From Dehalococcoidales bacterium (GTDB lineage: Bacteria > Chloroflexota > Dehalococcoidia > Dehalococcoidales > RBG-16-60-22), in contig JAFGOC010000131.1 of the NCBI GenBank assembly GCA_016926705.1, positions 1-35,134 of the forward strand: a stretch of 35,134 nt of DNA, written 5' to 3'. This document shows positions 13,407-32,021 of the stretch, piece by piece (position 1 is the stretch's first letter; every line of letters starts with the position of its first letter). The position numbers were made by a program, and so were the translations under genes. Below the pieces are notes generated by a model, which saw nothing but the letters and a program-made list of their open reading frames with translations, did not search any database and was not told the DNA's origin.

Positions 13407-14375
13407 TTAAAAATGGAGCGCCCGTTTTAGTGCCCGGTGAATATCAGCAGTGAACCTTTTAGAGATATCCGCGCCCGGCACGAGCATATCGAAAGCGTGG
13501 CAGCCTCCGGGATAGACATGGAGTTCGGTGGGGACGCCGGCAGCAATCAATCTGCGCGCGTAAGCAACGTCTTCCTCGGCGAAAAGGTCAATATCTCCGA
13601 CCGTGATATAGGCGGGGGGAAGCCCCGCCAGACTTTCCGCTCTAAAAGCCGCCGCATAGCAGGAAATTCCAGCGCCGCCAGGCTCGCAGCCGAGAAATGA
13701 ACGCCAGCCTTGCAGGTTATTTTCACGGGTCCAGAAGAGCGTATCCGGCAGGACATCGCCGGGTGGAGCAACGTTACAGTCGTTAATCATGGGGTAAATC
13801 AGCAGTTGAAACATTATTTGTACTTCAGCCCGGTCACGCGCCAGGATAGCCAGGCCGGAGGCAAGCCCGCCTCCCGCACTCGCACCCCCGACGGCGATGC
13901 GGGAAAGGTTTACTTTAAGGTCACGGGCATGAGCCGCTAGCCACTTTAGAGCGGCGTAGCAGTCTTCAAGAGGGGCGGGATAAGGGTTTTCGGGCGCCAG
14001 CCGGTATTCCACGGAAACGACCACGCAATTACCAGCTAAAGTGAATTGCTTAGCGGTAAAATCTTCCTGGTCTATTTCACCCAGCATATAGCCGCCGCCG
14101 TGAATCCAGAGCAGGGCAGGGAGTAGTCCCGATTGTTTTTCCGGCCGGTAAATTCTAACGGTAACATCGGGTTCACCTTTGGGGCCGGGAACATTTTTAT
14201 CTTCGGTAATGACACCCGGGATGACCGGCAGTTGTGATTTCATTGCCGCCATCATCTGTTTGGAAGCGGCACGGGCGGCAGGTAAATCATTAAAATTCAT
14301 AGGCGGCATCTGGCTTAGCATTTGCTTAATCGGTCCTTTGAGTTCAGGGTCTAATAATTCCGTCAAATCACGCAC
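13407..14375 (-). CDS. Alpha/beta hydrolase (HSL-family esterase/lipase)
   Basis: LLWIHGGGYMLGEID (HGGG oxyanion motif), RIAVGGASAGGGLASGLA (GxSxG), CHAFD. Likely GTG start at 14375 with upstream GGGGGGAAA; the longer track ORF overlaps the upstream GRE. Confidence 0.88.
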   Translation of the reverse strand: MRDLTELLDPELKGPIKQMLSQMPPMNFNDLPAARAASKQMMAAMKSQLPVIPGVITEDKNVPGPKGEPDVTVRIYRPEKQSGLLPALLWIHGGGYMLGEIDQEDFTAKQFTLAGNCVVVSVEYRLAPENPYPAPLEDCYAALKWLAAHARDLKVNLSRIAVGGASAGGGLASGLAILARDRAEVQIMFQLLIYPMINDCNVAPPGDVLPDTLFWTRENNLQGWRSFLGCEPGGAGISCYAAAFRAESLAGLPPAYITVGDIDLFAEEDVAYARRLIAAGVPTELHVYPGGCHAFDMLVPGADISKRFTADIHRALKRALHF

Positions 14376-14409
14376 TATAATTTCCCCCCTATTTATAAAT
14401 AAAATATTC

Positions 14410-16860
14410 CTAACAACCCTGTGTGCTTCTGTATATGATGTCATCCTGGATTTCCGGGGAAAGCATCACAAAGTAGGCGCTGAAGCCTCCCACTCTAACC
14501 ACCAGGTCGCGATGCTTTTCCGGATGGACTTTAGCATCGAGCAGCTCTTCGGTATCCACCAGATTGTACTGAATATGCTGTCCGCCATTTCTGAAGAAAG
14601 TATCGGTAAGGATAGCCAGTTTTTCCCGACTTTCCGGACTTTGCATGACCGTACCGGAAAACTTCTGGTTCAGGCATGATGCGTAGGACTCTTTAAAGCC
14701 CGCTTTAAGCGCCGACCTGATTACGCCGGTGGGGCCAAGCTTATCCATTCCCCTCATTGGAGATATCGAGCCGTCGTTCAATGGTTCCTTTGATTTTCGT
14801 CCACTGGGTAATGCTCCTACACCTAAACCGCCGAAGTAATGCCAGGATAGTCCTTCACGGGAAATTTTACAGGGTACATCAAATGGGTTTTTATATGCCA
14901 TGATAACGCTGCCGGAAAATTTGCCTACATCACGGACCATAAAATCTGCTTCATCGATATCATTGCCGAATTTCGGTGCCGCCAGGCACATCTGCCTTAT
15001 CTCCTCGCCCTTTCTACCTGTAAAGTTATTATTGAGGGCGTTTAAAAGCTCATCCATGGTCAGTTTTTTCTCGTCGTATACCATTTTTTTTATAGCGGTA
15101 AGTGAATCTGCCGTGTCAACGATTGCCCGGTCACTGATGCCGTAGCTATGGTCCGAGTCCGTGATAAGAATGTCCTGTCCCTTCTCCATACACGAAGGGC
15201 CCGTAATGCAGGAGTTGAACGGGAAACGCAGGTACTTCGGCTCAACGCTCTGGGCCAGAGTGCCGAGCCACAAGACACGATTCACAACATATTGGTATTG
15301 TTTTTTGAATGCTTCGTATAATTCTGCAAAGGTCCTGAATTTCCGCGGGTCGCCGACATCTATGCCGACTTTTTTACCGGTTATCTGGGATACCCCACGG
15401 TGAAGCGTGAGGTCCAGAATCAGCGCAACATTTACCGCCCCTTTACCCTCGCTACCGTTATGGTCGACTTTAGTCGGAAGAATCGGTGTAACACATCCCT
15501 GGCCGTACCAGTCTCTAGCGTCCCCGATAGGTGTACCGTCGTTGACAAAGCTGGCGACAACATGGTCGCTGTTTTCAAAGAGGGGGATACCGCCTTTTGT
15601 CTTATAATTAGTTTCTATCGCTTTAAGCATCAAAGAGCGGGGTGTTTGCGAGTTCCAGTTGACTAGAACGGTCGGCGATGATATTTTAATCAAGCCAATC
15701 ATATGGAGAACTAGGTAACTCAAAGCGTTTGTGGCGTCTTTCCCCTCCCTGTCCACGCCGCCGATATTGATACTGTTGATGCTGTAACTGAACTGGTGGG
15801 TCTCCTGCTGGGTTTTACCAACCGGGACGACGACTTTCATGCCCCAGAGCGTTAAAGCGCTGCCTAAAAGCTCCGCCGCTCTTTCCAGCGTTAATCGTCC
15901 GTCATGGAGGTCTTTTTCAAAATAAGGCTTAAGGTACTGGTCGATTCTGCCGACGAGGAGAGGGTACATCGCCTCCAGTCCTCTGCCGACGATGATGAAG
16001 TTCATGAACTGGAGGGCCTCATGAAATGTTCGCGCCGGGTTCTCCGGTACGCGTTTGCAAATATCAGCAATCTCGATAAGCTCATTCCGTCTTTCAAGGT
16101 TAGGCTCATTTTCAGCTTTACGGCGAGCCAGGTCGGTATATCTTCGGGCATAATTTATCATCGCTTCACAGACGATAATCGCCGACTGCCAGAAATAGAG
16201 CTTATTGATATCGGTCTCTTTCATATCTTGAAAACGTTGTATGCCGGCTTCGGCTTCCTCTATCAAGCCGCGCATCCCTTTTGAAAGCAGCTTCTCCCAC
16301 GTGCCCCGGCAGGTGACTCCGGGGAAATAGCCGGAATCCGGAGTGGGGTCGGCACCTTTGGCTTCACTGATATCCTGCGCCCAGGTCCCTACTACGGAAC
16401 GCCAGGCTTCGTTGACATGGTCCGGAGCCGTTTTCCCGCTAAAAAAGCGGGCGCATTCTCTTAAGGTATTTTTATCTTCTTTAGATTTTGTTTCCTGAAA
16501 TTCCATCCAGCGGCTTAATTTATCCCCTTCCTCCCAGAGTCCAGGGATAGAGTCTCCGTTTTCATCCACGAACGCCGGCGCACCAATTAGATGTTCCGTT
16601 TCTCTGCCTACGATGATGTCAAAATCATGTATAGCGATGGGGCCTTTCTCCAGTACTTTCTTAAACAGCCGGGCGCGACGGAGTTCGATATCTTCGCCTT
16701 CCGTCTCTTGCCAGGATTCCATCGCCACCCGGGCCCGGTCAACGGAAATTATCCTCGGGGCACCGAACATGGCGTCTTTAAGCTGAAAGAGAGACGGGCT
16801 TAATTTTAGATTATCAATCTTTTTTATGAGAGCTTCTTCGGGTTTTGATTTAGTGACCAT
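14410..16860 (-). CDS. Glycyl radical enzyme, PFL/dehydratase/decarboxylase superfamily, substrate unknown
   Basis: Glycyl radical loop LVVRVGGFSAYFVMLSPEIQDDIIYRSTQ at the C-terminus; thiyl-Cys motif WYGQGCVTP; N-terminal PFL-domain features (RARVAMESWQETEGEDIELRRARLFKKVLEKGPIAIHDFDIIVG). Likely start ATG 16860 (MVTKSKPEEAL). Confidence 0.93.
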   Translation of the reverse strand: MVTKSKPEEALIKKIDNLKLSPSLFQLKDAMFGAPRIISVDRARVAMESWQETEGEDIELRRARLFKKVLEKGPIAIHDFDIIVGRETEHLIGAPAFVDENGDSIPGLWEEGDKLSRWMEFQETKSKEDKNTLRECARFFSGKTAPDHVNEAWRSVVGTWAQDISEAKGADPTPDSGYFPGVTCRGTWEKLLSKGMRGLIEEAEAGIQRFQDMKETDINKLYFWQSAIIVCEAMINYARRYTDLARRKAENEPNLERRNELIEIADICKRVPENPARTFHEALQFMNFIIVGRGLEAMYPLLVGRIDQYLKPYFEKDLHDGRLTLERAAELLGSALTLWGMKVVVPVGKTQQETHQFSYSINSINIGGVDREGKDATNALSYLVLHMIGLIKISSPTVLVNWNSQTPRSLMLKAIETNYKTKGGIPLFENSDHVVASFVNDGTPIGDARDWYGQGCVTPILPTKVDHNGSEGKGAVNVALILDLTLHRGVSQITGKKVGIDVGDPRKFRTFAELYEAFKKQYQYVVNRVLWLGTLAQSVEPKYLRFPFNSCITGPSCMEKGQDILITDSDHSYGISDRAIVDTADSLTAIKKMVYDEKKLTMDELLNALNNNFTGRKGEEIRQMCLAAPKFGNDIDEADFMVRDVGKFSGSVIMAYKNPFDVPCKISREGLSWHYFGGLGVGALPSGRKSKEPLNDGSISPMRGMDKLGPTGVIRSALKAGFKESYASCLNQKFSGTVMQSPESREKLAILTDTFFRNGGQHIQYNLVDTEELLDAKVHPEKHRDLVVRVGGFSAYFVMLSPEIQDDIIYRSTQGC

Positions 16861-16906
16861 AATGACCTCCACTCGAGTTACCGCAGTGTGTACGTTTTTT
16901 AGTTTG

Positions 16907-17818
16907 TCATTGTGAAATCGTGCACATAATTCCATTAGATTCGAAAGCTTTTTTTAATGATTCAAGATGCTCGGATTCAGGAGAGAGAACATCGGACAAC
17001 GGATATTCCCTATCCAGAGACTCGTATTTACCTTTACCCAATCGGTGATATGGCATTAGTTCAATACGGAGGGAGTTATTCCCCAAACCATGCAGAAAAT
17101 CTACTGATTCTTTAATGTTTTGTTCATCATCATTAATCCCCGGAACTAACGGCATCCTGAAAAGCGTTTCCACGCCGCTTTCGGCCGCAATCCCGGCGTT
17201 GTAAAGTATAAGCTCATTCGGTTGGCCGGTATATTTACGGTGTTTTTCAGAATTCAGGTGTTTAAGGTCATAGAGTATGTAATCGGTGTAAGGGAGGACC
17301 TGTTTTAAAGCGGACTCGGGAGCGCATCCTGCTGTTTCAATGCAGGTGTGAATGCTGGCCCGCTGGCATTTTTGAAACAGGTCGCATACAAGTTGCGGCT
17401 GCAAAAGGGGCTCTCCCCCGGAAGCCGTTACCCCGCCGCCGGACGCTTCATAAAACATCTTGTCACGGTTTATAGCATCGTAAATTTCTTCGGCGTTCAT
17501 TGCCCGGCCATAGAGGACTAATGCTCCATAAGAACATGCCGAACAGCATATACCACAGCCATCACAGCGTGCACGGTCAATACGAGGAGGCTTGTCTGCC
17601 TGGTATTCTAGCGCATTATTGGGGCAAACTTCGGCGCACTTGCCGCATTTGGTGCAAAGTTTTTTGATTAGTCCCACTTCGGGGTGTGGGGAAATACACT
17701 CCGGGTTGCTGCACCATTGGCATTCGAGGTTGCAGCCTTTCATGAATACAACCGTTCTTATGCCCGGTCCGTCATGTATAGAATAGCCCTGTATATTTGT
17801 GACCAAACCAGATATCAT
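16907..17818 (-). CDS. Glycyl-radical enzyme activating enzyme (radical SAM with two extra [4Fe-4S] motifs)
   Basis: QGYSIHDGPGIRTVVFMKGCNLECQWCSNPE (CxxxCxxC), CTKCGKCAEVCPNNALE and CDGCGICCSACSYGAL, SGGGVTASGGEPLLQ. Directly upstream of the GRE. Confidence 0.95.
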   Translation of the reverse strand: MISGLVTNIQGYSIHDGPGIRTVVFMKGCNLECQWCSNPECISPHPEVGLIKKLCTKCGKCAEVCPNNALEYQADKPPRIDRARCDGCGICCSACSYGALVLYGRAMNAEEIYDAINRDKMFYEASGGGVTASGGEPLLQPQLVCDLFQKCQRASIHTCIETAGCAPESALKQVLPYTDYILYDLKHLNSEKHRKYTGQPNELILYNAGIAAESGVETLFRMPLVPGINDDEQNIKESVDFLHGLGNNSLRIELMPYHRLGKGKYESLDREYPLSDVLSPESEHLESLKKAFESNGIMCTISQ

Positions 17819-18231
17819 GATGGCTTTACTTTACCTACCTGGGTGAATAACTTTAGCGTGTCCGCTACATCCCAGTGCTCGGCGATTTTTCCATCTTCTA
17901 TGCGGAAAATGTCTACAACGTCGAAGTTGAGCTTATTGCCGGTTGGAGGATTTCCCAGCCATTCATTTTTATGGGTTGCCGTGGTGGTGGAGTACATCAT
18001 GACGATATCACCTTCGGCGACAATTCTTTTTACGGTGTAGCTAAAATCAGGCAAGCCTCTGAATATTCCCTTGAAAAACTCTATAAATCCGGCTTTACCC
18101 TGCGGAGTATCCGGGTTATGTTGGATGTAATCTTCTCTCATTATCTCATCCAGCTGGCTGAAATCATGGTTCTGAAAAACGGTTTTACAGAGCGCCTCCA
18201 CGAGCTTTTTATTCTCCTCAAGTGTGGACAT
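17815..18231 (-). CDS. SnoaL-like (NTF2-fold) polyketide cyclase/ester cyclase family protein
   Basis: MSTLEENKKLVEALCKTVFQNHDFSQLDEIMREDYIQHNPDTPQG...VVDIFRIEDGKIAEHWDVADTLKLFTQ; SD GGAGGTAAACGGGAG before ATG 18231. Stop overlaps the activase ATG (ATGA). Confidence 0.8.
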   Translation of the reverse strand: MSTLEENKKLVEALCKTVFQNHDFSQLDEIMREDYIQHNPDTPQGKAGFIEFFKGIFRGLPDFSYTVKRIVAEGDIVMMYSTTTATHKNEWLGNPPTGNKLNFDVVDIFRIEDGKIAEHWDVADTLKLFTQVGKVKPS

Positions 18232-18290
18232 CTCCCGTTTACCTCCCTGCTGTATGTATATCCGGTATTCCCCGGGCATCGATTCTAAAT

Positions 18291-18711
18291 TTAAGGTTTA
18301 ATGATGGAGTCTTCTTTTTTCACATATTTGGACGCGATGCTGGTATGGAATAGAATAATGGGTTTATCTACCCTTTTGAAGATAAGCGGGCAGTGTATTA
18401 GTCCAGCGGGAATGTAAACGCTTGCCGGCGACGTGAAGGTATGCATTTCCTGCTCCTCGCCTAAACCCGATTTCAATTTCTGCAAACAGGTCATCCATGT
18501 GTTCATAGTCATAGGACATGAAATGAAGATACATATCAAAGTCATGAGAATGGGGGTATTCTTCCATTTTACACGGCGCCATAACGCGGGTAATCATAAA
18601 TGTTACGTTGGTTTTGTAGTCGGTCTCGCCAGTCCATTCCATAGTAGGCCATGGTTCAAATTTCGCCAGGGATTTTCTGATTACATACCTGCCGTATTTT
18701 GATTCTTTCAT
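18291..18711 (-). pseudogene. Cupin-like protein interrupted by an apparent single-base frameshift
   Basis: Frame a (ORF 18364-18711): MKESKYGRYVIRKSLAKFEPWPTMEWTGETDYKTNVTFMITRVMAPCKMEEYPHSHDFDMYLHFMSYDYEHMDDLFAEIEIG. Frame b (ORF 18291-18545) continues GLGEEQEMHTFTSPASVYIPAGLIHCPLIFKRVDKPIILFHTSIAS. The frames join at GGG on the minus strand (18466-18468); dropping one G restores a single ORF of about 139 codons. Confidence 0.75.
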
Positions 18712-18761
18712 TTACTCACTCCTAATATAAACTTTTTTAGAGAACGATGGCCAAGCCATCT

Positions 18762-19595
18762 CTAATAATCGCCTGTCAAGGTAAAATTTCTCCGCTTGTT
18801 GGCTTTTTGCCAGAGCATCATGTGCCCGGCCTCTTCCGAGATTATTTTAACCGCATCGACGGCAAGCGGACCGAGTTCAAGAGCCTCTTCCTCCGTAAAA
18901 AACCCGACGATTGTGATATAACCGATCGGATAGCTGTTTTGGTCCAGTATCGGCGCAGCAACAGCATTCATCCCCTGTTGAATATCTCCCAGTTCCAATG
19001 CAAATCCGTTCTGCCGGCATCCAGCCAATTCTTCCCGGAGCCTTTTTTTGTTAAATTTTTCCGGACGCCCATAAAAATAGAGGTCTTTATTTTTTAGCAT
19101 TTCCTCAAGTTGGTCTTCAGGTAAAAAGGCCGCAATTACTTTTCCATGAGCACCATACGTTATCGGTGTAACATACCCAATGGGGGAAGAAACTCCAATA
19201 CCTGGCGCTCCCAAATACTCGGCAATAACATACGTTTTATCATCGGAGATTATGCCCAGTGCTACAGTTGCCCCAGCTTTTTTAGCTAGGTCCTGGAGAA
19301 CCGGTTCGGCGAGACGCGGGAGACTTAAAGTCTCCAGCAATTTCCCTGCAAGTGTTAAAAGTCCGGGCCCGAGCACATAACCTTTTCTGTTAGGATTCTT
19401 TTTCACGAAACCGTGCTCATTTAGAGTATTCAGGATGGAAAAAGCTTTACTGCGATAAATACCCACTTCCTGGCAGATGTCCGTAAGACTTTTAGAATTA
19501 CTTCCGCTATCAGCCAGGCAAAGCATTACCCGGATTGCCTGTTCGACAGCCGGCACCTTATACAGGTTTTTGGCCTGACTATTATCGGCGGACAA
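18762..19595 (-). CDS. IclR family transcriptional regulator
   Basis: KVPAVEQAIRVMLCLADSGSNSKSLTDICQEVGIYRSKAFSILNTLNEHGFVKKNPNRKGYVLG (IclR wHTH), then IclR effector-domain sequence ending EEAGHMML. Confidence 0.93.
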   Translation of the reverse strand: MSADNSQAKNLYKVPAVEQAIRVMLCLADSGSNSKSLTDICQEVGIYRSKAFSILNTLNEHGFVKKNPNRKGYVLGPGLLTLAGKLLETLSLPRLAEPVLQDLAKKAGATVALGIISDDKTYVIAEYLGAPGIGVSSPIGYVTPITYGAHGKVIAAFLPEDQLEEMLKNKDLYFYGRPEKFNKKRLREELAGCRQNGFALELGDIQQGMNAVAAPILDQNSYPIGYITIVGFFTEEEALELGPLAVDAVKIISEEAGHMMLWQKANKRRNFTLTGDY

Positions 19596-19630
19596 TGTAG
19601 TTTTATCCTTAGAACTAAAGTTTTGTAGAT

Positions 19631-19659
19631 AGAATAACAGAGTAAATTGGTGTTGTCAA
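19631..19659 (-). promoter_or_regulatory. Putative sigma70-type promoter for the IclR regulator/GRE cluster
   Basis: Minus strand TTGACA (19654-19659), 17-bp spacer, TATTCT (19631-19636), about 36 nt upstream of ATG 19595. Confidence 0.6.
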
Positions 19660-19854
19660 GTTATATTTTGCAGCTTATATAATAAATACTATTTTAAATA
19701 TAATTGTCAGATGAAAATTTGAATACCATTAAATTTCTTAGTCCAAACATGCTTCAAATATATCGTGTTTCCGGTATAGTTCGACTATAAAGGAGGCAAA
19801 CAGACTCCGCTTTTTACCCGAGATACGTAGGGTTCAGAAGGTCTGCAATTTAAG

Positions 19855-19929: not shown

Positions 19930-19968
19930 TTTAGCTATGAAATCTTTAGTTGTTACTCTCTAGTATTT

Positions 19969-20430
19969 TTATTTATATTCAAGTAAAGTGCCCCAATTTT
20001 CCACCTTGTTAAATCGGTTGTTGGTAGAATGAAAATGTATAAGAATCGGAGTTTTATCTAGATCAGGATTATGTTCAAATAGAACCCTGTCACCGTACCT
20101 GATAGCTTCTAAAGCCAGCGGGAGTTCGGATTTAAAAATATTATAACGGAACTTAGCCGGGCCCCAAATAAATCCCCCGCTCACGTGGCAGTACGCTTTG
20201 AGTACCAGGTTTTCGCCCTCGCGTACGAGTTCGGCCAGGACCTCATCTCTCATCAATCTTGTATATAGCTTTGAAATCTGTTTTGTGTCATAAGCGCTAC
20301 CGATAGAAAGAAAGAGATTACCGGTAATATCAGAGTGATTTAACGTATAACGTCTCGGCAATATCAAGTGGTCAGGAGTAGCTCCGGCCAAGTACGTAAC
20401 GTGTAGCTTTTCCGGATTTAGCCTCTGCAT
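19969..20430 (-). CDS. STAY-GREEN (SGR/NYE, Mg-dechelatase family) bacterial homolog
   Basis: 153 aa. RRYTLNHSDITGNLFLSIGSAYDTKQISKLYTRLMRDEVLAELV...LKAYCHVSGGFIWGPAKFRYNIFKSELPLALEAIRYGDRVLFEHNPDL...ILIHFHSTNNRFNKVENWGTL follows the plant SGR pattern recalled as RxYTLTHSDIT..L.L.I......QL..WY.RLQRDEVVAEW...L.VHCHVSGG....D..A..RY.IF.KELP.VL.A..HGD..L....P.L....V.V.FHS....FN..E.WG.L. Confidence 0.85.
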   Translation of the reverse strand: MQRLNPEKLHVTYLAGATPDHLILPRRYTLNHSDITGNLFLSIGSAYDTKQISKLYTRLMRDEVLAELVREGENLVLKAYCHVSGGFIWGPAKFRYNIFKSELPLALEAIRYGDRVLFEHNPDLDKTPILIHFHSTNNRFNKVENWGTLLEYK

Positions 20431-20438
20431 ACTAATCT

Positions 20439-20468
20439 ATTAGACTCTCTAAAAATTATATTTGTCAA
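20439..20468 (-). promoter_or_regulatory. Putative sigma70-type promoter for the SGR-like gene, leaderless arrangement
   Basis: Minus strand TTGACA (20463-20468), 18-bp spacer, TCTAAT (20439-20444); -10 lies only 8 nt upstream of ATG 20430 and no Shine-Dalgarno is visible. Confidence 0.5.
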
Positions 20469-20555
20469 CAGATATGTGACAATTAACAGAAAAATTGGAC
20501 GATGATTTAAAAAAAACGTCTCAAATAAACAGATTTCCCACTTGAGAAATTATTA

Positions 20556-21239
20556 TTAAGTCTTTTTCCACTGGATGCAGAGCTCAAGAAACCTGGGGAC
20601 GAGGGTCACGCGGGCATTCCGGAGGGGCGTTTCTCTTAAGAGCGCCTTCACCTCCCCGAGGTTGTAAGACGAGCGGACGGCCTTCAGCCAGAGCAGGCGC
20701 TGGGATTGGTTCATGCCCATGGCCCAACCGAGCAGGCTCAAGAATGGGTTGAGTATGTTATACCTCATGTTGTCCCAGATTAAGCAATAACCGCCCGGGG
20801 AGGTGACCCTGGAAATTTCCTTGAATACTTTAGCGGGGTCCGACCATAAATGCAGGGAGGAGTTACTGACTACCAGGGCAAAGGAGCCGTCGGCGAAGGG
20901 CAGCGACTCCGCGGGAGTCGGCTGAAAAACGATTCTGTCGGTTAAGCCTGCTTGTTCAGTATTCGTCCGTGCGATTTTCAGCATCTCTTCCGAGATATCG
21001 GCGCCGGTAATTTGCCAGTCGGGGCGGACTTTCGCCAGCTCGATTACCAGTCGGCCGGTGCCGGTGCCAAGGTCCAGCACCTGCTTTCCGGGGATATTTA
21101 TTCTCGCTGCTTTAGCGGCGAACCGGCGGTACACCGACCCCATGAAGCGCCGGGCATGTTCGTCATAAAATTGCGCGGCACTGGTGTCAGCAAAGGAGTC
21201 TTCGCTTAATGGGATACGCGTGCCTTTTAAAAATTTCAT
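20556..21239 (-). CDS. Class I SAM-dependent methyltransferase (UbiE/type 11-like)
   Basis: QVLDLGTGTGRLVIELAKVRPDWQITGADISEEMLKIAR, LPFADGSFALVVSNSSLHLW, RVTSPGGYCLIWD. Confidence 0.9.
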   Translation of the reverse strand: MKFLKGTRIPLSEDSFADTSAAQFYDEHARRFMGSVYRRFAAKAARINIPGKQVLDLGTGTGRLVIELAKVRPDWQITGADISEEMLKIARTNTEQAGLTDRIVFQPTPAESLPFADGSFALVVSNSSLHLWSDPAKVFKEISRVTSPGGYCLIWDNMRYNILNPFLSLLGWAMGMNQSQRLLWLKAVRSSYNLGEVKALLRETPLRNARVTLVPRFLELCIQWKKT

Positions 21240-21249
21240 AATATTGTTT

Positions 21250-22449
21250 TTATTGATTCAACAGACAGGCGGGGTCGGCGGCTAAGGGGTCTGTCGTATG
21301 AGCGAAAGCCCGGCCGCGACAGCCGCCGCAGATATTCTGGTGGCGGCATTCTCCGCAGACGCCTTTCAAACGCCGAGATTGTCCGCGGAACTCCTGCAGC
21401 AGCGTCGAGTTATTCCAGATATCCGCAAAAGACGTCCGGCGCACATTACCCGCCGAAAGCGGAATAAAATTGCACGGCCACACCTCGCCGTCAAACCGTA
21501 TATAGCTGAAGCCTCTGCCAGCACCGCAGCCGGAAAGGGCTTTCTCACGTATACTCTTTCCAAGCGGGAAATGTTTTTGTTCGACCAGAAACGGCCAATA
21601 CTCGGGGCAGCAGACCGGCATTATCAGGGCGCGGGTCTTTTTCTGCTTTTCCGCGATTGTTCTAATGAGTTGCATTTGTTCTTCAGCGTCCAGTTCAAGA
21701 GCCACCCCTTCTTTATGAGGCGGGACAGCCTGGAAAACCATAATGATATCCGCTTTCAGTGATTCGGCAAGGCCGATTAAGCCGGACAGCTCGGCCAGGT
21801 TTTGTTTCATCGCCGTGAAATTGACCTGCAGGCAAACGCCGGTTTGTGCGGCAGCCTTGATGCCATTCAGGGCGCCTTGAAAACATCCCTCCTTGCGTCG
21901 GATAGACTCGTGACAATCGCTGGTATAGCCGTCCAGACTGATAGAAAAATTGGCCACACCCAATCTAGCCAGGTCTTTGGCCATGTCCGGCGTCAGTAAA
22001 GTGCCGTTGGTGCTGAAGACGATATGAAACCCTAATTTCCCTGCGTACTCAATAAGCTCAAATATGTCCTCTCTTAAGAGGGGCTCGCCGCCGGTGATGA
22101 CAATCATGCGTATATCTTCAACCGCAGCGATTTGTTCCAGGAGCTTTTTACCTTCGATGGTGGATAGCTCTGCCTGTATTGAGTCCACAGAACTTGCATA
22201 ACAGTGAATGCAGTTTAGATTGCAGCGCGTTGTTACTTCCCAGACTACATGAGTGGGATAACCGGTACAACCGATGGCAGTGGCGCCGGCGGCGGAGGCA
22301 AGCACTTTTTTCCCCTTAAGCATCCAGCCGGGGAGTCCGACCCAGCCGGTAATCCATCCGTGATACGCCAGGGAGAAGGCCTGTTTGAATACCAGCGAGG
22401 GCGGATTGAAGAGTGATTTTACCCGTCTTCCGGGTTTGGAGTTTACCAA
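21250..22449 (-). CDS. Radical SAM/SPASM-domain protein, AhbC/AhbD/NirJ-like
   Basis: HVVWEVTTRCNLNCIHCYASS (CxxxCxxC), IVITGGEPLLREDIFELIEYAGKLG; C-terminal CGECRHQNICGGCRGRAFAHTTDPLAADPACLLNQ typical of the AhbD/NirJ/PqqE SPASM group. Confidence 0.88.
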   Translation of the reverse strand: MVNSKPGRRVKSLFNPPSLVFKQAFSLAYHGWITGWVGLPGWMLKGKKVLASAAGATAIGCTGYPTHVVWEVTTRCNLNCIHCYASSVDSIQAELSTIEGKKLLEQIAAVEDIRMIVITGGEPLLREDIFELIEYAGKLGFHIVFSTNGTLLTPDMAKDLARLGVANFSISLDGYTSDCHESIRRKEGCFQGALNGIKAAAQTGVCLQVNFTAMKQNLAELSGLIGLAESLKADIIMVFQAVPPHKEGVALELDAEEQMQLIRTIAEKQKKTRALIMPVCCPEYWPFLVEQKHFPLGKSIREKALSGCGAGRGFSYIRFDGEVWPCNFIPLSAGNVRRTSFADIWNNSTLLQEFRGQSRRLKGVCGECRHQNICGGCRGRAFAHTTDPLAADPACLLNQ

Positions 22450-22458
22450 AAAATTCTC

Positions 22459-23394
22459 CTAATAGAACAAGAAAACGCTTAGCAGGATTAACACACGGGC
22501 GACCAGCATGAAATAGGTGGCGAAGGAGAAAGCTTTTATCCCCTTGGCGAAGTTTTCGGAATCCTGCATGAAGTTGAAGCTGATTACCAGCGCAAGCAAA
22601 GCCATCAGGCCGGTCGGTATTAAGTAAAGCAGCCCCAGGTTGAACAAGAAGCCAAGATAGATGCCTACTCCGGCGGCCAGACATAAAAAGATAAAACCCA
22701 GAACGGTTGCTGCCTGCGGAGACGTCCTTTTTATAAAAGCCGGTACTTGAGTTAGTTTTTCGCCCTTGACGTGCTGTATGGGGTGCAGAGGGGAATAGAC
22801 CATAATATGCCCGGCCTGCCATGTTACCGAAAACAGCCACAATGCCCACGGCTCCCAGGAGGTAAACAGGGTGTTCGGCGAGAAAGCCGTCCAGCCGCAA
22901 AGCCAGAGCATGCCTTCGATGGGGGGGAGGATAAGATAGCCGCCCCTGTCTCTTAAGTAACTGGAGTATAGGCAGCTAAAGGCGATGGCAATTACCGAGA
23001 CAGCGAAACAGGTGGGATTAAAGACGAACCAGACGATAATCAGGGCGACGGCGAAAGACGCGATGGTCAGCAGCAGAGCCTGCCGCGGCGCCAGCCGACG
23101 GCTCGGTATCGGCCGGCCGGGCCAGCAGACCACGTCACGGCGCCGGTCGGCGAAGTCGTTGAAAGCGTGAATACCGGCAAAAGCCAGCAGGGCGGCAATT
23201 AGACCTGGAACAGCTTCACTCCAGGAAGGGAATCCACTGTTAGCTAGTGCGGCGGCGCCGGCTACGCCAAGCGCTCCCATCGTTGAAAGGACCGGTCGGG
23301 TAATATCGATAGCCCCTGCCAGCCTATCACTTATGGTATAACTTGATTTAACCTCATTCCCCTGCCCCATCCAGCGCTGCATGATGCCAGCCAT
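22459..23394 (-). CDS. UbiA family prenyltransferase
   Basis: First motif HAFNDFADRRRDVVCWPGRPIPSRRLAPRQAL (NDxxDxxxD...RPIPS); polytopic. Second Asp motif altered (HPIQHVKGEK). Confidence 0.85.
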   Translation of the reverse strand: MAGIMQRWMGQGNEVKSSYTISDRLAGAIDITRPVLSTMGALGVAGAAALANSGFPSWSEAVPGLIAALLAFAGIHAFNDFADRRRDVVCWPGRPIPSRRLAPRQALLLTIASFAVALIIVWFVFNPTCFAVSVIAIAFSCLYSSYLRDRGGYLILPPIEGMLWLCGWTAFSPNTLFTSWEPWALWLFSVTWQAGHIMVYSPLHPIQHVKGEKLTQVPAFIKRTSPQAATVLGFIFLCLAAGVGIYLGFLFNLGLLYLIPTGLMALLALVISFNFMQDSENFAKGIKAFSFATYFMLVARVLILLSVFLFY

Positions 23395-23427
23395 TTTTAC
23401 CCGCCTTGTTTTCCGAATTAAGTATAG

Positions 23428-24543
23428 TTATTTCCGGTCTTTTTCGCCAGTTATCTGTGCGTATTCCCGGCCGAACCATTCTTTGTATTTCGATCTCAGC
23501 ATTCTGCCGGTGAAGATGACCGTATTAAAGGGGAAGGCGCTCTTTTGTAGGTGGCCGTAATACATGTGCACGATGAGAATAAATCCGACGGCGAGTACCG
23601 CCTCGTCGCGGTGGGCGGCGGCAACCACAGCAAACCACTGGCCGTCCATCTGGCTGAATACCGAGGGGAACATCATGATGATGCCCGTGATTACCATCAC
23701 CGGCATGCCCCAGAATATCGCCCAGTAATCTATTTTTTGACCATATTGAAAACGGTCGTACTGCGGCTCGTGGCGGTGCAGGCCGAATATCCAGAGGAAG
23801 GTATGGATGATGTCTTTAAGGTCTTTCCAGCGGGGGAACATCGCCGCGGGGGACTTGTGTTTCACGAAATACCCGTAGGCTATATATCCGAGATGATATA
23901 TGCCGTCGGCAATCATGACGAAAGCGGCGATATCATGTACCAGCCGCAGCACCTCGGTGCCGCCGAAGACGCTTGTAAACCACTGAAAGGTCGGCCAGTC
24001 CGGGAAGCCCCTCAAGAAACCAGTTATGGCCAGGACAATAAAAGACACCATCAAGGCAAAATGCTGGATACGCTGGTGGATATCGAAGCGCCGGACATAA
24101 TCGCCTTCCACGCGGGTCCTGGCGTCGGCAGGGACTTTCGGGGTACGGTCGAGCTTATCCAGCCAGGAGAACTCGTCGTCCCAGGTATAGGATTCGCCTT
24201 TGCGGGCGATTATCACGCGGCGGGTGACCTCCATGATGATAATCAATGTAGTTGGGATGAGGACGCCTGCCGTCAGCAGAAAGAAGAACCACCTGGTGAT
24301 TGTCACCGATATCTGCGTGACGTCAGAGGCACCGACATATGGAGCGTACTGTGAATAGGAGTGTATTTCAAAATCGTGGGTGAGTGGAAAGATATCGAAA
24401 AGGATGAAACCCAGGATAACCGCCTCGACAACAACGATGCCGATGATGAGTGGAAAATAGTAGCGGGGCAGGGCACTTTTCTTAGGACCCCCGATATTTT
24501 CCATCTTCGTGCTATCGAAGATGATTTCAGGATTGGTTACCAT
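23428..24543 (-). CDS. Di-heme cytochrome b-type membrane subunit (formate dehydrogenase gamma/FdnI-like)
   Basis: RRFDIHQRIQHFALMVSFIVLAITGFLRGFP, LRLVHDIAAFVMIADGIYH, KIDYWAIFWGMPVMVITGIIMMFP, HRDEAVLAVGFILIVHMYYGHL: His-bearing TM helices of the FdnI/thiosulfate reductase cyt b family. Confidence 0.85.
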   Translation of the reverse strand: MVTNPEIIFDSTKMENIGGPKKSALPRYYFPLIIGIVVVEAVILGFILFDIFPLTHDFEIHSYSQYAPYVGASDVTQISVTITRWFFFLLTAGVLIPTTLIIIMEVTRRVIIARKGESYTWDDEFSWLDKLDRTPKVPADARTRVEGDYVRRFDIHQRIQHFALMVSFIVLAITGFLRGFPDWPTFQWFTSVFGGTEVLRLVHDIAAFVMIADGIYHLGYIAYGYFVKHKSPAAMFPRWKDLKDIIHTFLWIFGLHRHEPQYDRFQYGQKIDYWAIFWGMPVMVITGIIMMFPSVFSQMDGQWFAVVAAAHRDEAVLAVGFILIVHMYYGHLQKSAFPFNTVIFTGRMLRSKYKEWFGREYAQITGEKDRK

Positions 24544-26735
24544 GCCCAGGGTTTACCCCCGTGTTCCTTGGTAAAGATGTCCCCGAATTTCGGGTCTTTA
24601 AGTTCCTCCGGTTTGCATTTATATACCTTGCATATCAGGCACGTCAGGTCCGGCGAGCCGTACATGGGGTCCTGATGGTCGGCATTAGTAAGAACATTGG
24701 GGTTGGAAATAAACACACCGCGGAAGCCCTGCGCCGGCGCTTCCGGGTAAAACCAGTTGGCCGTAGCCGCCACGACCCTGGGGTCGATGCCCGGGAACAG
24801 CCGGGCTTTTTGAATGATTTTGCCGCGCGGCGATTCTATCCAGACGAAATCGCCGTCTTCAATACCCAGCTCTTTGGCGGTTTTGGGATTAATCTGCATG
24901 GTGGGATATTCCATAAAGGTACGCAGCCAGGGGATGTTGCGGTATTGCGCCAGGAAGTAGAACGGCGAGCGGAAGCCGGTAGTAAGCACCAGCGGGTACT
25001 CCCTAGCCAGGTCCGGCGTTGAATTGGGACTCTCGCCGGGCTCTTCAAAAAAGGGCAGCGGGTCATAACCAAGATTTTCTAAAACTGTTGAATAAAGTTC
25101 CATCTTGCCGGTGGGAGTGGGGAAACCTCCCCCCTTCCGCCAGTAGTCGGTCTTGTATTTGTAATAGACCTGGTCCGGCCCGAAGCACCCGGAGATGGTT
25201 TTTTCGCTGAACTTCTTCCAGGTAGTGGGCGCTTTTCTTAACTCGTGGTCGAGCAGGGTTTCTACGTCTTTAAACCAGTATTCAGGTGCGACACGGCGCC
25301 CGATTTCATTAAATATCCAGGCGTCGGATTTAGCCTCACCGGGCGGGTCGACGCACTTATTATGTGCTTCTATCATGAAACGTGGGTGCATATCGTAAAT
25401 ATCGTCCATTTCCAGCCAGTGCGCCGCGGGCAGGACGATGTCTGCCATTTCAGCCATCGGGCCCCAGAATAGGTCGACCTGTACCAGAAAATCGACCTTT
25501 TTCAGACCTTCAACGACCGGCTTGGTGCTGGCCAGGTGGACGATCTGCTGGCCGCCGACGCTTATCCAGACGCGGATAGGCTTTTCTCCCTTATTGAAAT
25601 CCCTGATTATAGTGTCGGGATTGCAGGTGCGGGCCGCGCCCATTTTAAATTCCTTACCCCCATAGATATGCGACCGCATCTCGTCGGTAAGGGGTATTTC
25701 GTTAAATACATCTTCAATCAGGCCGGTTTCCGGCAACACCCAGCTTACCATACTGCCGGGCCTTTCAATGTTGCCGGTAATGCCGAGCAGGTTGATGATG
25801 GCCCGCAGGGTCTGGCCGCAGTTCGCTTGCCTTTCCAGAGAGCTGCCGATTTGAATAACGCCCGGGGTATCCTGGGCGAACAAGCGGGCTGCCTGAATTA
25901 TCTTTTCTTTTGGTATCCAGGTTATTTCCGAGACCTTATCAACCGGGTACTCGGCCGCACGCTTTTTTAGTTCCTCGAAGCCGTAGGTCCAATTTTCTAC
26001 GAACTCTTTATCCCAGAGGCCTTCCTGAATAATGATATTAATCATGCCTAAAGCGAGGGCGGCATCCGTGCCCGGCCGGATCTGCAGCCAGAGCGTAGCC
26101 CGCGATGTATAGGCGGTCGCCCGCGGGTCGACGATTATCAGGTTCTTACAGTAGTCCAGCGACTTTATATACCAGTTGCACAACTCGGAGTCGGCGCTGC
26201 TGATTTCAAGTTGTTTGGCCCAGGATATCTGGGTCTTAGGGAACACGCCGCCCCACCCATGGTAATCGCAGTAAAGCCGGCCGTAGCCGGTAATCAAGCC
26301 ATAGAGGCCGATACGCGGACTGTGGCAGATATAGCCCGGCGAAATTACATTGGCGGAGCCCATCGAGCGGGAAAAACGGTGAGTGTAGCGGTTATAACCC
26401 CGGCCCGTCCCCTGTGAGGTGGCTACCGTCCAGGGGCCATATTTCTCGGAGGCCTCTTTAATTTTAGCGGCAATCGTGTCCAAAGCTTCGTCCCAGCTTA
26501 TCTGTTTCCATTTACCTTCGCCTTTTTCACCAACTCTCTTGTAAGGGTGCTTAATGCGGTAAGGATTATCGATGTGCTGGATACTGGACAGCCCCTTGGC
26601 GCACATGGTGCCGCGGGTGGTGGAATCCGGGTTGCCTTCGATATGCGTGATTACGCCGTCGGTGACCTCAACCAGAACACCGCAGCCTCCGTGGCAGCTC
26701 TTGCAGGTGGTCTTTATTATTTTCTTTTCAGCCAT
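24537..26735 (-). CDS. Molybdopterin oxidoreductase, catalytic subunit (CISM; PsrA/PhsA/FdhA-like), cytoplasmic
   Basis: TTCKSCHGGCGVLVEVTDGVITHIEGNPDSTTRGTMCAKG ([4Fe-4S] motif), SWDEALDTIAAKI, SPGYICHSPRIGLYG (likely Cys Mo ligand), CNWYIKSLDYCKNLIIVDPRATAYTSRATLWLQIRPGTDAALALGMI. No Tat signal peptide. 7-nt overlap with the downstream cyt b ORF. Confidence 0.92.
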   Translation of the reverse strand: MAEKKIIKTTCKSCHGGCGVLVEVTDGVITHIEGNPDSTTRGTMCAKGLSSIQHIDNPYRIKHPYKRVGEKGEGKWKQISWDEALDTIAAKIKEASEKYGPWTVATSQGTGRGYNRYTHRFSRSMGSANVISPGYICHSPRIGLYGLITGYGRLYCDYHGWGGVFPKTQISWAKQLEISSADSELCNWYIKSLDYCKNLIIVDPRATAYTSRATLWLQIRPGTDAALALGMINIIIQEGLWDKEFVENWTYGFEELKKRAAEYPVDKVSEITWIPKEKIIQAARLFAQDTPGVIQIGSSLERQANCGQTLRAIINLLGITGNIERPGSMVSWVLPETGLIEDVFNEIPLTDEMRSHIYGGKEFKMGAARTCNPDTIIRDFNKGEKPIRVWISVGGQQIVHLASTKPVVEGLKKVDFLVQVDLFWGPMAEMADIVLPAAHWLEMDDIYDMHPRFMIEAHNKCVDPPGEAKSDAWIFNEIGRRVAPEYWFKDVETLLDHELRKAPTTWKKFSEKTISGCFGPDQVYYKYKTDYWRKGGGFPTPTGKMELYSTVLENLGYDPLPFFEEPGESPNSTPDLAREYPLVLTTGFRSPFYFLAQYRNIPWLRTFMEYPTMQINPKTAKELGIEDGDFVWIESPRGKIIQKARLFPGIDPRVVAATANWFYPEAPAQGFRGVFISNPNVLTNADHQDPMYGSPDLTCLICKVYKCKPEELKDPKFGDIFTKEHGGKPWAW

Positions 26736-28889: not shown

Positions 28890-29603
28890 TTAGCTGGAGA
28901 GCTTTTCCTGGGACATCATGGCTTCGGCTTCAGCATGTGGGATTTTCACCCTGGGGAGTATCGGCTTGCCATCTGGTCCCATGGTAATGGCGCCGGTGGG
29001 GCAAACGTAGGCGCAGTCCCCGCAGCCGATACATTCCGAGCCCAGTTCATAAGCATAAAATGGAGCGGCGACTTCTTTATAGATGCCGCGGTTTACCAGG
29101 CTGATAGCCGATTTTCCCATATTTTCCTGACATATTCTCACACACAGACCGCAAAGAATACATTCGTTCTCCCCAAGAGCGAACCTGGGCTTTTCCACGC
29201 CGTATTCCTTAGCCAGGTCCTGGACTACTTTAACATCCGGGCATCTTGCCAGCAGAAATTCGATGATTCCCTTGCGGAGTTTCCTGATTTTCTCGGTGTT
29301 GGTCTTGATAATCTGGCCGTTCATGGCAGGATATAAGCATGAAGCCACGAACTTGAAGGATTTGCCCTGGTCCTCGCTGACTTCCACGGTGCATAAGCGG
29401 CATGCTCCGTAAGGTCGCACGGCAGGATTGTAGCAGAGAGCGGGAATATTCCCTATGCCATCCATGTGCCGCAAAGATTCGTAGATGGTCTGCCCGGCGG
29501 ATACCAGGACGTCTTTATCATCGACGGTGAAATGCACCGTATTTACGTCTTCCGCGTCGTTCATTTCAATAGCAGTATCACCGTTTATCCAGTACTTGGT
29601 CAT
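28890..29603 (-). CDS. 2Fe-2S/4Fe-4S protein resembling the NuoG/HoxU/HndD N-terminal module
   Basis: IPALCYNPAVRPYGACRLCTVEV...CLYPAMNGQIIKTNTEKIRKLRKGIIEFLLARCP, then CILCGLCVRICQENMG and CIGCGDCAYVCPTGAI. Ends without an H-cluster domain. Confidence 0.92.
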   Translation of the reverse strand: MTKYWINGDTAIEMNDAEDVNTVHFTVDDKDVLVSAGQTIYESLRHMDGIGNIPALCYNPAVRPYGACRLCTVEVSEDQGKSFKFVASCLYPAMNGQIIKTNTEKIRKLRKGIIEFLLARCPDVKVVQDLAKEYGVEKPRFALGENECILCGLCVRICQENMGKSAISLVNRGIYKEVAAPFYAYELGSECIGCGDCAYVCPTGAITMGPDGKPILPRVKIPHAEAEAMMSQEKLSS

Positions 29604-29624
29604 TTTAGTATCTCCTTTAGCTTT

Positions 29625-31505
29625 CTAATGCTTAACTACCGCATCGAATTTACAGACATCGAAACAGGCCCCGCACTTGATGCATAGCCCCTTGTTTATA
29701 ACGTGAGGCTCGCGTTTTTCTCCGGTAATGGCACTGGTGGAGCAGGCGCGTGCGCAGACACCGCAACCGGTGCATTTATCGGTGTTGATTTCATACTCGA
29801 TAAGTTCGCGGCAGACGCCGGCCGGGCATTTCTTGTCTTTGATATGCGCTATATATTCGTCTTTAAAGTATTTAAGCGTGCTTAAAACGGGATTAGTGGC
29901 GGTACGCCCCAGGGCGCAGAGAGCGCCGATATTCAGGATTTCCCCGATGTCCTCCATGGTCTGGAGGTCTTCCATTTTACCCTCGCCGTGGGTAATCCTG
30001 TTTAAAATTTCGCTTAGCGTGGTAAGGCCTTCACGACAGGGCGTACACTTGCCGCAGGACTCTCCCTTGAGAAAGTCGATGAAATACCGGGCGACATCCA
30101 CCATGCACGTGTCCTCGTCCATGATAATCATGCCGCCAGAACCCATCATCGACCCGAGCTTGGTCAATTCGTCGAAGTCCACCGGTGTATCCAGGAGCTG
30201 TTCCGGGATGCAGCCGCCGGAGGGTCCGCCCGTCTGGACAGCTTTGAACTTTTTGCCGCCCGGGATGCCTCCGCCGATATCGTAAATCATTTCCCGCAGG
30301 GTAATGCCCATAGGGACTTCCACCAGACCGGAGTTGTTAATCTTGCCTACCAGCGAGAATATCATCGTACCTTTGCTGCCGGCGGTGCCGATTTTCGAAT
30401 ACCAGTCGGCGCCCTTGTTGATTATCAGAGGCACGTTGGCCCAGGTCTTGACATTGTTCAGCAGGCTGGGCTTGTCCCAGAGGCCTTTTTCCGACATGTG
30501 TGTATATTTAGCTTTTGGCTCTCCTACCTTACCTTCAAGCGATGCTATCAGTGCACTGGATTCGCCGCAGACGAAAGCCCCGCCCCCTTTATTTATCGTT
30601 ATCCTGAAGTCGAAGCCGGAGCCGAGGATATTCTCACCCAGCAGTCCGTAGTCCACTGCCTGGTCGATGGCTATCCTGGTGCGTTCCACCGCCAGAGGAT
30701 ATTCGTTGCGCACGTAGATAAAGCCCTGGTGAGCGCCGATGGCATAGGCGCCGATAATCATCCCCTCGATGACGCTGTGGGGGTTTCCTTCCAGGATACT
30801 GCGGTCCGGATAAGCGCCGGGGTCGCCTTCATCGGCGTTGCAGATTACATATTTAATATCTCCCTCGGCGGTGCGGCAGGACTGCCATTTGCGGCCGGTG
30901 GGGAAACCTCCGCCGCCCCTGCCGCGCAAACCGGACTTGGTGATTTCATTGATTATTTTGTCAGGGTTCATCTTTGTGAGAGCTTTAGTTAACGCGGAGT
31001 AACCCCCGGCGGCGATGTACTGTGAAATTTCCTCGGGGTCTATCTCGCCGTTGGATCCCAGGATAAGGCGCGTCTGCCTGGCGTAGAAGGGAACATCGGA
31101 CTCGTAGGTGATTTCCTTGCCGGTGGCCGGGTCGTTATAAAGCAGGCGCGGGATAACCCTGCCGTTTAAAATCGTTTCTGAAATTATCTCCGGTACGTCC
31201 TCCGGTTTTACGTGCTGGTAAAATATTTTCTTAGGACCGATAACTACCACCGGGCCTCTTTCGCAGAAGCCGTGGCAGCCCGTTTCCTTGAACTCTATCT
31301 TAACCTGGAGTTCCTGTTTTTCTATCTCTTCAGAAAAAGCATCGACGACGTCTTCAGCGCCGGAGGCGCGGCAGCCGGTACCTCCGCAGACGGAAACGGT
31401 CATCCGGCTAGCATCTTTATCTTTTAAAATCGTCTGCCGGAACTGCTCCAGTTCCTGAACGTTTTTAAGCTTCCTATCCAGTAACTTCCTAACTTGTTCG
31501 ACCAT
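29625..31505 (-). CDS. NADH dehydrogenase/hydrogenase NuoF-HndC-like subunit with N-terminal 2Fe-2S thioredoxin-like and C-terminal 2x[4Fe-4S] domains
   Basis: [94 protein letters not shown]-terminal [16 protein letters not shown] and [16 protein letters not shown]. Confidence 0.95.
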
Positions 31506-31523
31506 TTTTTGCCTTTCTGCCGT

Positions 31524-32021
31524 TTATTCGTAATTTTTCAGGATTTTGTCCAGCTTGGATGGGGTTACCTGGCCTTCGTATTTACCGTCGATAACGACCA
31601 CCGGCCCGAGGGCGCAGCAGCCCAGGCAGTTGGCTGTTTCCAGCGTGAATCTCTCATCCCTGGTTGTATCACCGGGCTTCACTTTATAGTCCCTGGCCAT
31701 TTTGTCGACGAGTCTCTGCCCGCCTTTGACGTGACAGGCCGTGCCCAGGCAAACGGTAATGGTGTGGCGGCCCCTGGGTTTTAGACTGAACGACTGGAAA
31801 AAGGTGGCGACACTGAAAACCTGGCTCAAGGGTATGTCCAGTTTCCGGCTGACTTTGACCAGGGTTTCCTGGGGGAGGTAATTGAACTCCGCCTGGATAT
31901 CCTGCAATAAAGATATCAGCTGCTCTTTTTTATCGACATAGCTATCTATAAGGGCCTCGACCCTTGCAGCGCTACTTTCCAGAGCTGCCTGGATTGCAGC
32001 TAAATCGAGTGTATTATCCAC
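31524..32021 (-). CDS. NuoE/HndA-like 2Fe-2S thioredoxin-fold subunit
   Basis: FNYLPQETLVKVSRKLDIPLSQVFSVATFFQSFSLKPRGRHTITVCLGTACHVKGGQRLVDKM...TLETANCLGCCALGPVVVIDGKYEGQVTPSKLDKIL. GTG start with GGGAGG upstream. Confidence 0.94.
   Translation of the reverse strand: MDNTLDLAAIQAALESSAARVEALIDSYVDKKEQLISLLQDIQAEFNYLPQETLVKVSRKLDIPLSQVFSVATFFQSFSLKPRGRHTITVCLGTACHVKGGQRLVDKMARDYKVKPGDTTRDERFTLETANCLGCCALGPVVVIDGKYEGQVTPSKLDKILKNYE

Follow-up and report, generated by a model that had tools for sequence, protein, structure and literature searches.

What use could a bacterium that appears to make no chlorophyll have for a Staygreen (SGR) protein, a member of the family that includes the Mg-dechelatases of plants? 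That bacteria and archaea have SGR homologs is already published, together with activity and a crystal structure, and their physiological role is stated to be unknown; the function of the family in cells without chlorophyll is an acknowledged question (PMC8531759). The DNA analysed here, called the window throughout, is a stretch of 35,134 nucleotides, a contig of a 1.73-Mb metagenome-assembled genome (MAG; G000) of a Dehalococcoidales bacterium that is 79% complete.

A Staygreen-family gene with intact catalytic residues

The ORF in the window is real and encodes a bona fide member of the Staygreen family. It is read from the minus strand (in the plus-strand frame, positions 19969-20430 are crowded with stops), and the gene and the codons that matter below are the following.

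19969..20430, minus strand: Staygreen-family (SGR) gene, stop codon included, ATG start, 153 aa; from the ORF and its translation and the Pfam PF12638 and 7Y5Y matches
20338..20340, minus strand: codon of N31; T in 41/42 readable homologs, with the window copy as the exception
20335..20337, minus strand: codon of H32, published catalytic residue; ungapped alignment with H32 of AbSGR-h, invariant in 42 readable homologs
20329..20331, minus strand: codon of D34, published catalytic residue; aligned with D34 of AbSGR-h, invariant in 42 readable homologs
20245..20247, minus strand: codon of D62, published catalytic residue; aligned with D62 of AbSGR-h, invariant in 43 homologs

The original prediction of an SGR homolog over nearly its full length is borne out by Pfam PF12638 (Staygreen), which matches with E=1.4e-51 and 174.6 bits (cut-off 27), residues 4-152 covering profile positions 2-147 of 147, and which has zero matches in 14 control genomes. 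The peptide motifs quoted in that prediction are all present in the 153-aa product. No NCBIfam model matches the protein, and an Rfam scan of the window found no RNA family. The phmmer alignment with 7Y5Y, the structure of AbSGR-h from Anaerolineae bacterium SM23_63, is ungapped over residues 1-153 (E=2e-47, 53% identity). The suggested comparison of an AlphaFold model with bacterial SGR structures points the same way: the AlphaFold2 model, built from 21 homologs (pLDDT 85), has the SGR fold, and 7Y5Y is its sole significant PDB match in Foldseek (TM 0.94/0.95, rmsd 1.4, E=2.4e-21).

The catalytic residues of AbSGR-h are H32, D34 and D62 (PMC8531759, PMC11006732), and the critical positions to which His32, Asp34 and Asp62 had been assigned proved to be right, with identical numbering in the ungapped alignment. 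Identical in both proteins at the same numbers are R26, Y28, T29, H32, D34, T36, R61, D62, E63, R95 and D114, a set that holds the catalytic triplet and the structural R26, Y28, T29 and D114. Across 43 homologs H32, D34 and D62 are constant wherever they are readable. Among the positions mutated in AbSGR-h, the sole difference is at 31, N for T, and N31 is unique to the window copy; this substitution may carry functional weight, because AbSGR-h T31A has moderate activity and a broken multimer (PMC8531759).

The closest named relatives of the window SGR are in Dehalococcoidales MAGs (67-79% identity), which agrees with the Chloroflexota connection already proposed for it. These relatives, together with a 6.2-kb block that is syntenic with a sister species and nearly reaches SGR, rule out plant or algal contamination. 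Viral spread was considered too and set aside, no relative being found in viral contigs by the search made. The gene is rare (4/400 genomes of the phylum sample, its own genome counted, and 2/31 of the family), and G000 has a second copy, on contig C140, that is 68% identical to the one in the window.

The non-phototrophic context, without chlorophyll biosynthesis, that had been read from the window extends to the genome: BchH (Mg-chelatase H subunit) was not found in G000, at 79% completeness, and chlorophyll synthesis in the host was rejected on this ground. BchH is likewise undetected in 42/44 SGR carriers (G000 and 41 more), and the matches in the 2/44 others, both Lokiarchaeota, are doubtful because non-phototrophic methanogens match in the same search. 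SGR carriers thus appear, within the limits of incomplete MAGs, to make no chlorophyll and, since almost all are without a detectable Mg-chelatase H, a tetrapyrrole substrate would presumably be external or accidentally formed.

Surroundings of SGR in the window and in the sister species

Three features of the window bear on the context of the gene.

13486..19667, no strand: block syntenic with sister species G424 (contig C50:1-6201), 84.4% nucleotide identity over 6.2 kb
20455..20482, minus strand: promoter-like site TTGTCA-16-TATAAT (11/12), between the methyltransferase gene and SGR; weak, from a consensus scan alone with 3.0 such sites expected by chance in the region
20556..26735, minus strand: operon of methyltransferase, radical SAM, UbiA, cytochrome b561 and molybdopterin oxidoreductase genes, judged not part of SGR, conserved without SGR elsewhere

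Upstream of SGR and on its strand lie genes for a methyltransferase, a radical SAM/SPASM protein (closest to AhbD and NirJ2, below cut-off) and a UbiA prenyltransferase, seemingly a tetrapyrrole cassette in operon with SGR. This candidate was ruled out by the conservation of the set without SGR: the operon is present in G422, G425, G426 and G415, where SGR was not found, and in G424 on a contig other than that of SGR, and at no other SGR locus do methyltransferase, radical SAM and UbiA occur as a set. Because this genus-level set occurs elsewhere without SGR, its vicinity is incidental. The stretch 20556-26735 is conserved in at least five other family genomes. Farther off, also on the minus strand, are two series of genes. 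One encodes a glycyl radical enzyme, the radical SAM protein that activates it and a SnoaL-like product (14410-18279, syntenic in G424). The other encodes NuoG-, NuoF- and NuoE-like subunits (28890-32021), of which the first is closest to NADH-dependent hydrogenase and HoxU models, and is followed on the opposite strand by genes for a response regulator and a PAS histidine kinase.

Just past the syntenic block, the sister species G424 has a heliorhodopsin, an ArsC-like gene and SGR on one strand, and the window SGR segment (19961-20457) matches C50 8708-8211 in the opposite orientation. The window holds no remnants of heliorhodopsin or ArsC. Because the closest counterpart of the G424 heliorhodopsin in G000 (87%) lies on contig C110, the heliorhodopsin seems to have been separated from the window SGR and not lost. 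The window SGR, then, seems to have been inverted and parted from a former heliorhodopsin neighbour, the wider pattern being our guide to which arrangement is the older. C110 (locus L056, 3-8162), with this second heliorhodopsin of G000, also carries a very long multi-PAS sensor whose C-terminal part is histidine-kinase-like.

The other SGR copy of G000, on C140, is immediately preceded by an AhpC/TSA-like gene, the gene of a membrane protein (TM177) and ArsC; a heliorhodopsin lies 4.1 kb upstream, and MsrA and MsrB are farther upstream still. This paralog and the G424 ortholog (heliorhodopsin-ArsC-SGR) thus have a light gene no more than 5 kb away, and the window copy has none.

TM177, a conserved membrane protein without a Pfam match, lies directly upstream of ArsC-like and SGR genes at six Dehalococcoidia loci (L008:9053-9583, L009, L011, L012, L013 and L052:6627-7157) and is predicted, with low confidence, to have about five helices. 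Its identity as a TspO is not supported, the model (pLDDT 59) having no significant PDB match and a profile comparison being negative.

Light-response genes near SGR in relatives

In relatives, SGR genes are non-randomly close to light-response genes, a result that is statistical and post hoc. The set comprised 46 SGR loci from Chloroflexota, archaea and Bacillota, and heliorhodopsin, photolyase, carotenoid-type, TspO and CarH-like genes were counted as light genes at a distance of up to 5 kb. By tblastn with fixed seeds, the seed proteins being drawn from the test loci and the theme itself having been found by looking, 18/46 loci have a light gene within this distance (24/46 counting peroxiredoxin and Msr), and some of the 'CrtI-like' matches may be other FAD oxidoreductases; the other 28/46, the window's included, have none. 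A single match came from 40 random 20-kb regions of eight carrier chromosomes, and it lies near the SGR of G452. In whole-genome Pfam searches 5 heliorhodopsins were observed within 5 kb of SGR vs 0.15 expected, and 7 photolyases vs 0.06, under a Poisson test that ignores relatedness. On the tree of 43 prokaryotic SGRs the heliorhodopsin and photolyase states each need at least four changes, and the linkage is therefore not one inherited block. Co-occurrence taken alone (heliorhodopsin in 16/22 Chloroflexota SGR carriers vs 54/397 others) was rejected as evidence, being confounded by ancestry.

The arrangements themselves are varied. A heliorhodopsin immediately precedes SGR in L010, and in L019 crtI, crtB, lycopene cyclase, crtZ-like hydroxylase, DUF523/DUF1722, heliorhodopsin and SGR form a single run in which SGR follows heliorhodopsin after 38 bp. 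L015 has a heliorhodopsin, a MerR/B12-binding (CarH-like) regulator, DUF1475 and SGR. In Anaerolineales and related Chloroflexota (L023, L028, L029, L031, L037) a photolyase gene is found no more than 4 kb from SGR, and in two Hermodarchaeota it is convergent with SGR, with 31-34 bp between domain matches. SGR has a TspO/MBR gene next to it in L018 and L016, while in L011 the distance is 2.5 kb, and in Thorarchaeota and Hermodarchaeota SGR is preceded by peroxiredoxins. The SGR genes of L027 (G448 C3:683090-683533) and L044 (G464 C52) contain internal stop codons and are either decaying copies or assembly errors.

That non-phototrophs can carry SGR was known before; the novelty is its light-island context. 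The literature searched, outside which most subscription papers lie, gave no report of SGR linked to heliorhodopsin and light repair. The original prediction is also extended by the minus strand, the incidental neighbours, the second SGR copy and the enrichment of light-response genes at SGR loci elsewhere.

Possible roles and comparison with known systems

The reading we put forward, to which we give an even chance of being right, is that the window SGR is a catalytically intact, probably broad-specificity Mg-dechelatase that a non-phototroph uses in its response to light or photo-oxidative stress. The chemistry would be that of AbSGR-h, which takes Mg out of chlorophyll-type rings, D34 acting on the metal and H32 and D62 assisting (PMC11006732); by this analogy the window protein would itself be expected to dechelate Mg. 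In the proposed mechanism (i) a tetrapyrrole that the cell does not make would be taken up from outside or formed by accident, (ii) D34 would coordinate the central Mg of this chlorophyll-type or other Mg-tetrapyrrole and (iii) H32 and D62 would manage protons, so that Mg would be freed and the free base remain. Use under light is suggested because of the heliorhodopsin, photolyase and carotenoid setting in relatives, heliorhodopsins having been proposed as light switches in oxidative-stress mitigation near photolyase and carotenoid genes (PMC8612252). For the window SGR we infer the native substrate, the control by light and the benefit to the cell, and this copy would presumably keep its light-stress role despite its separation from heliorhodopsin. 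Counting against such a role are the absence of a light gene within 5 kb of this copy, N31, and the fact that neither photolyase nor phytoene synthase was detected in G000. Free-base products such as pheophorbide are also photosensitisers, and Mg removal alone may therefore not protect. More tentatively, and less likely than not, the Staygreen family could have begun by defending non-phototrophic bacteria and archaea against photosensitising tetrapyrroles, with its genes in heliorhodopsin/photolyase/carotenoid islands, and green plants would later have recruited this light-stress enzyme for chlorophyll breakdown.

Other explanations have to be weighed against the same evidence. A heterotroph might strip Mg from detrital chlorophyll as a first catabolic step, for carbon, nitrogen, phytol or Mg and with no special link to light, which would fit the many chlorophyll-type substrates of AbSGR-h, the external origin of any pigment in carriers without BchH and the names of many carriers, which are MAGs of anaerobic-sediment type; we find this rather unlikely, because what recurs at SGR are genes of light sensing, DNA photorepair, carotenoid type and redox defence, and not genes of chlorophyll or tetrapyrrole catabolism. 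That the true substrate of SGR is some other metallated tetrapyrrole or metal complex, with chlorophyll Mg-dechelation as a secondary activity that plants came to use, is unlikely as well: no carrier seems to make Mg-tetrapyrroles, the AbSGR-h substrate range is broad and the published physiological role is blank (PMC8531759), but every residue needed for Mg-dechelation is retained and the neighbours point to no alternative, the adjacent AhbD-like radical SAM gene belonging to an unrelated operon.

It is quite improbable, finally, that the linkage reflects coincidence or shared ancestry, with SGR a mobile, selfish-neutral gene landing in variable regions that heliorhodopsin and photolyase genes also favour. 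SGR is patchy in both phylum and family, as such a gene would be, and heliorhodopsin is common anyway (14/18 listed genomes of the order, 35/83 in Lokiarchaeia), but closeness, beyond mere co-occurrence, is in excess across several separate branches and for different light genes, and the 84% nucleotide synteny round the locus with the sister species speaks against a very recent arrival. The repeated closeness to heliorhodopsin, photolyase, carotenoid-type and TspO genes turns the question of what SGR does without chlorophyll into a concrete, testable hypothesis with named genes and organisms. It also bears on the origin of the plant enzyme behind Mendel's green peas.

Among known systems AbSGR-h is the nearest: besides equal length and 53% identity without gaps it shares the fold of the window model (TM 0.94), H32, D34, D62 and the structural residues, and differs in having T31 for N31 and in coming from Anaerolineae, whereas the window SGR belongs to a Dehalococcoidales genome that has two copies. 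Of the two proteins AbSGR-h is the sole one assayed, with Mg removal measured (PMC8531759, PMC11006732); the crystallised enzyme is active on chlorophyll a, chlorophyllide a, protochlorophyllide and chlorophylls b/c (PMC11006732). The window SGR falls, over the whole profile, in one Pfam family with the plant SGR/NYE and SGR-like Mg-dechelatases, and its D34 and D62 are the counterparts of Asp107 and Asp132 as published for Arabidopsis SGRL (PMC8531759); the contrast lies in the host, since plants make chlorophyll whereas that of the window makes none as far as BchH shows. SGR may also be a partner of heliorhodopsins. A transfer of SGR from bacteria is reportedly the subject of work by Obata in 2019. 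The light-response neighbourhoods described for heliorhodopsins (PMC8612252, PMC11109279), in texts from which SGR is absent, consist of photolyase, carotenoid genes, MerR regulators and redox proteins, and it is these same partners that recur round SGR in relatives of the window gene.
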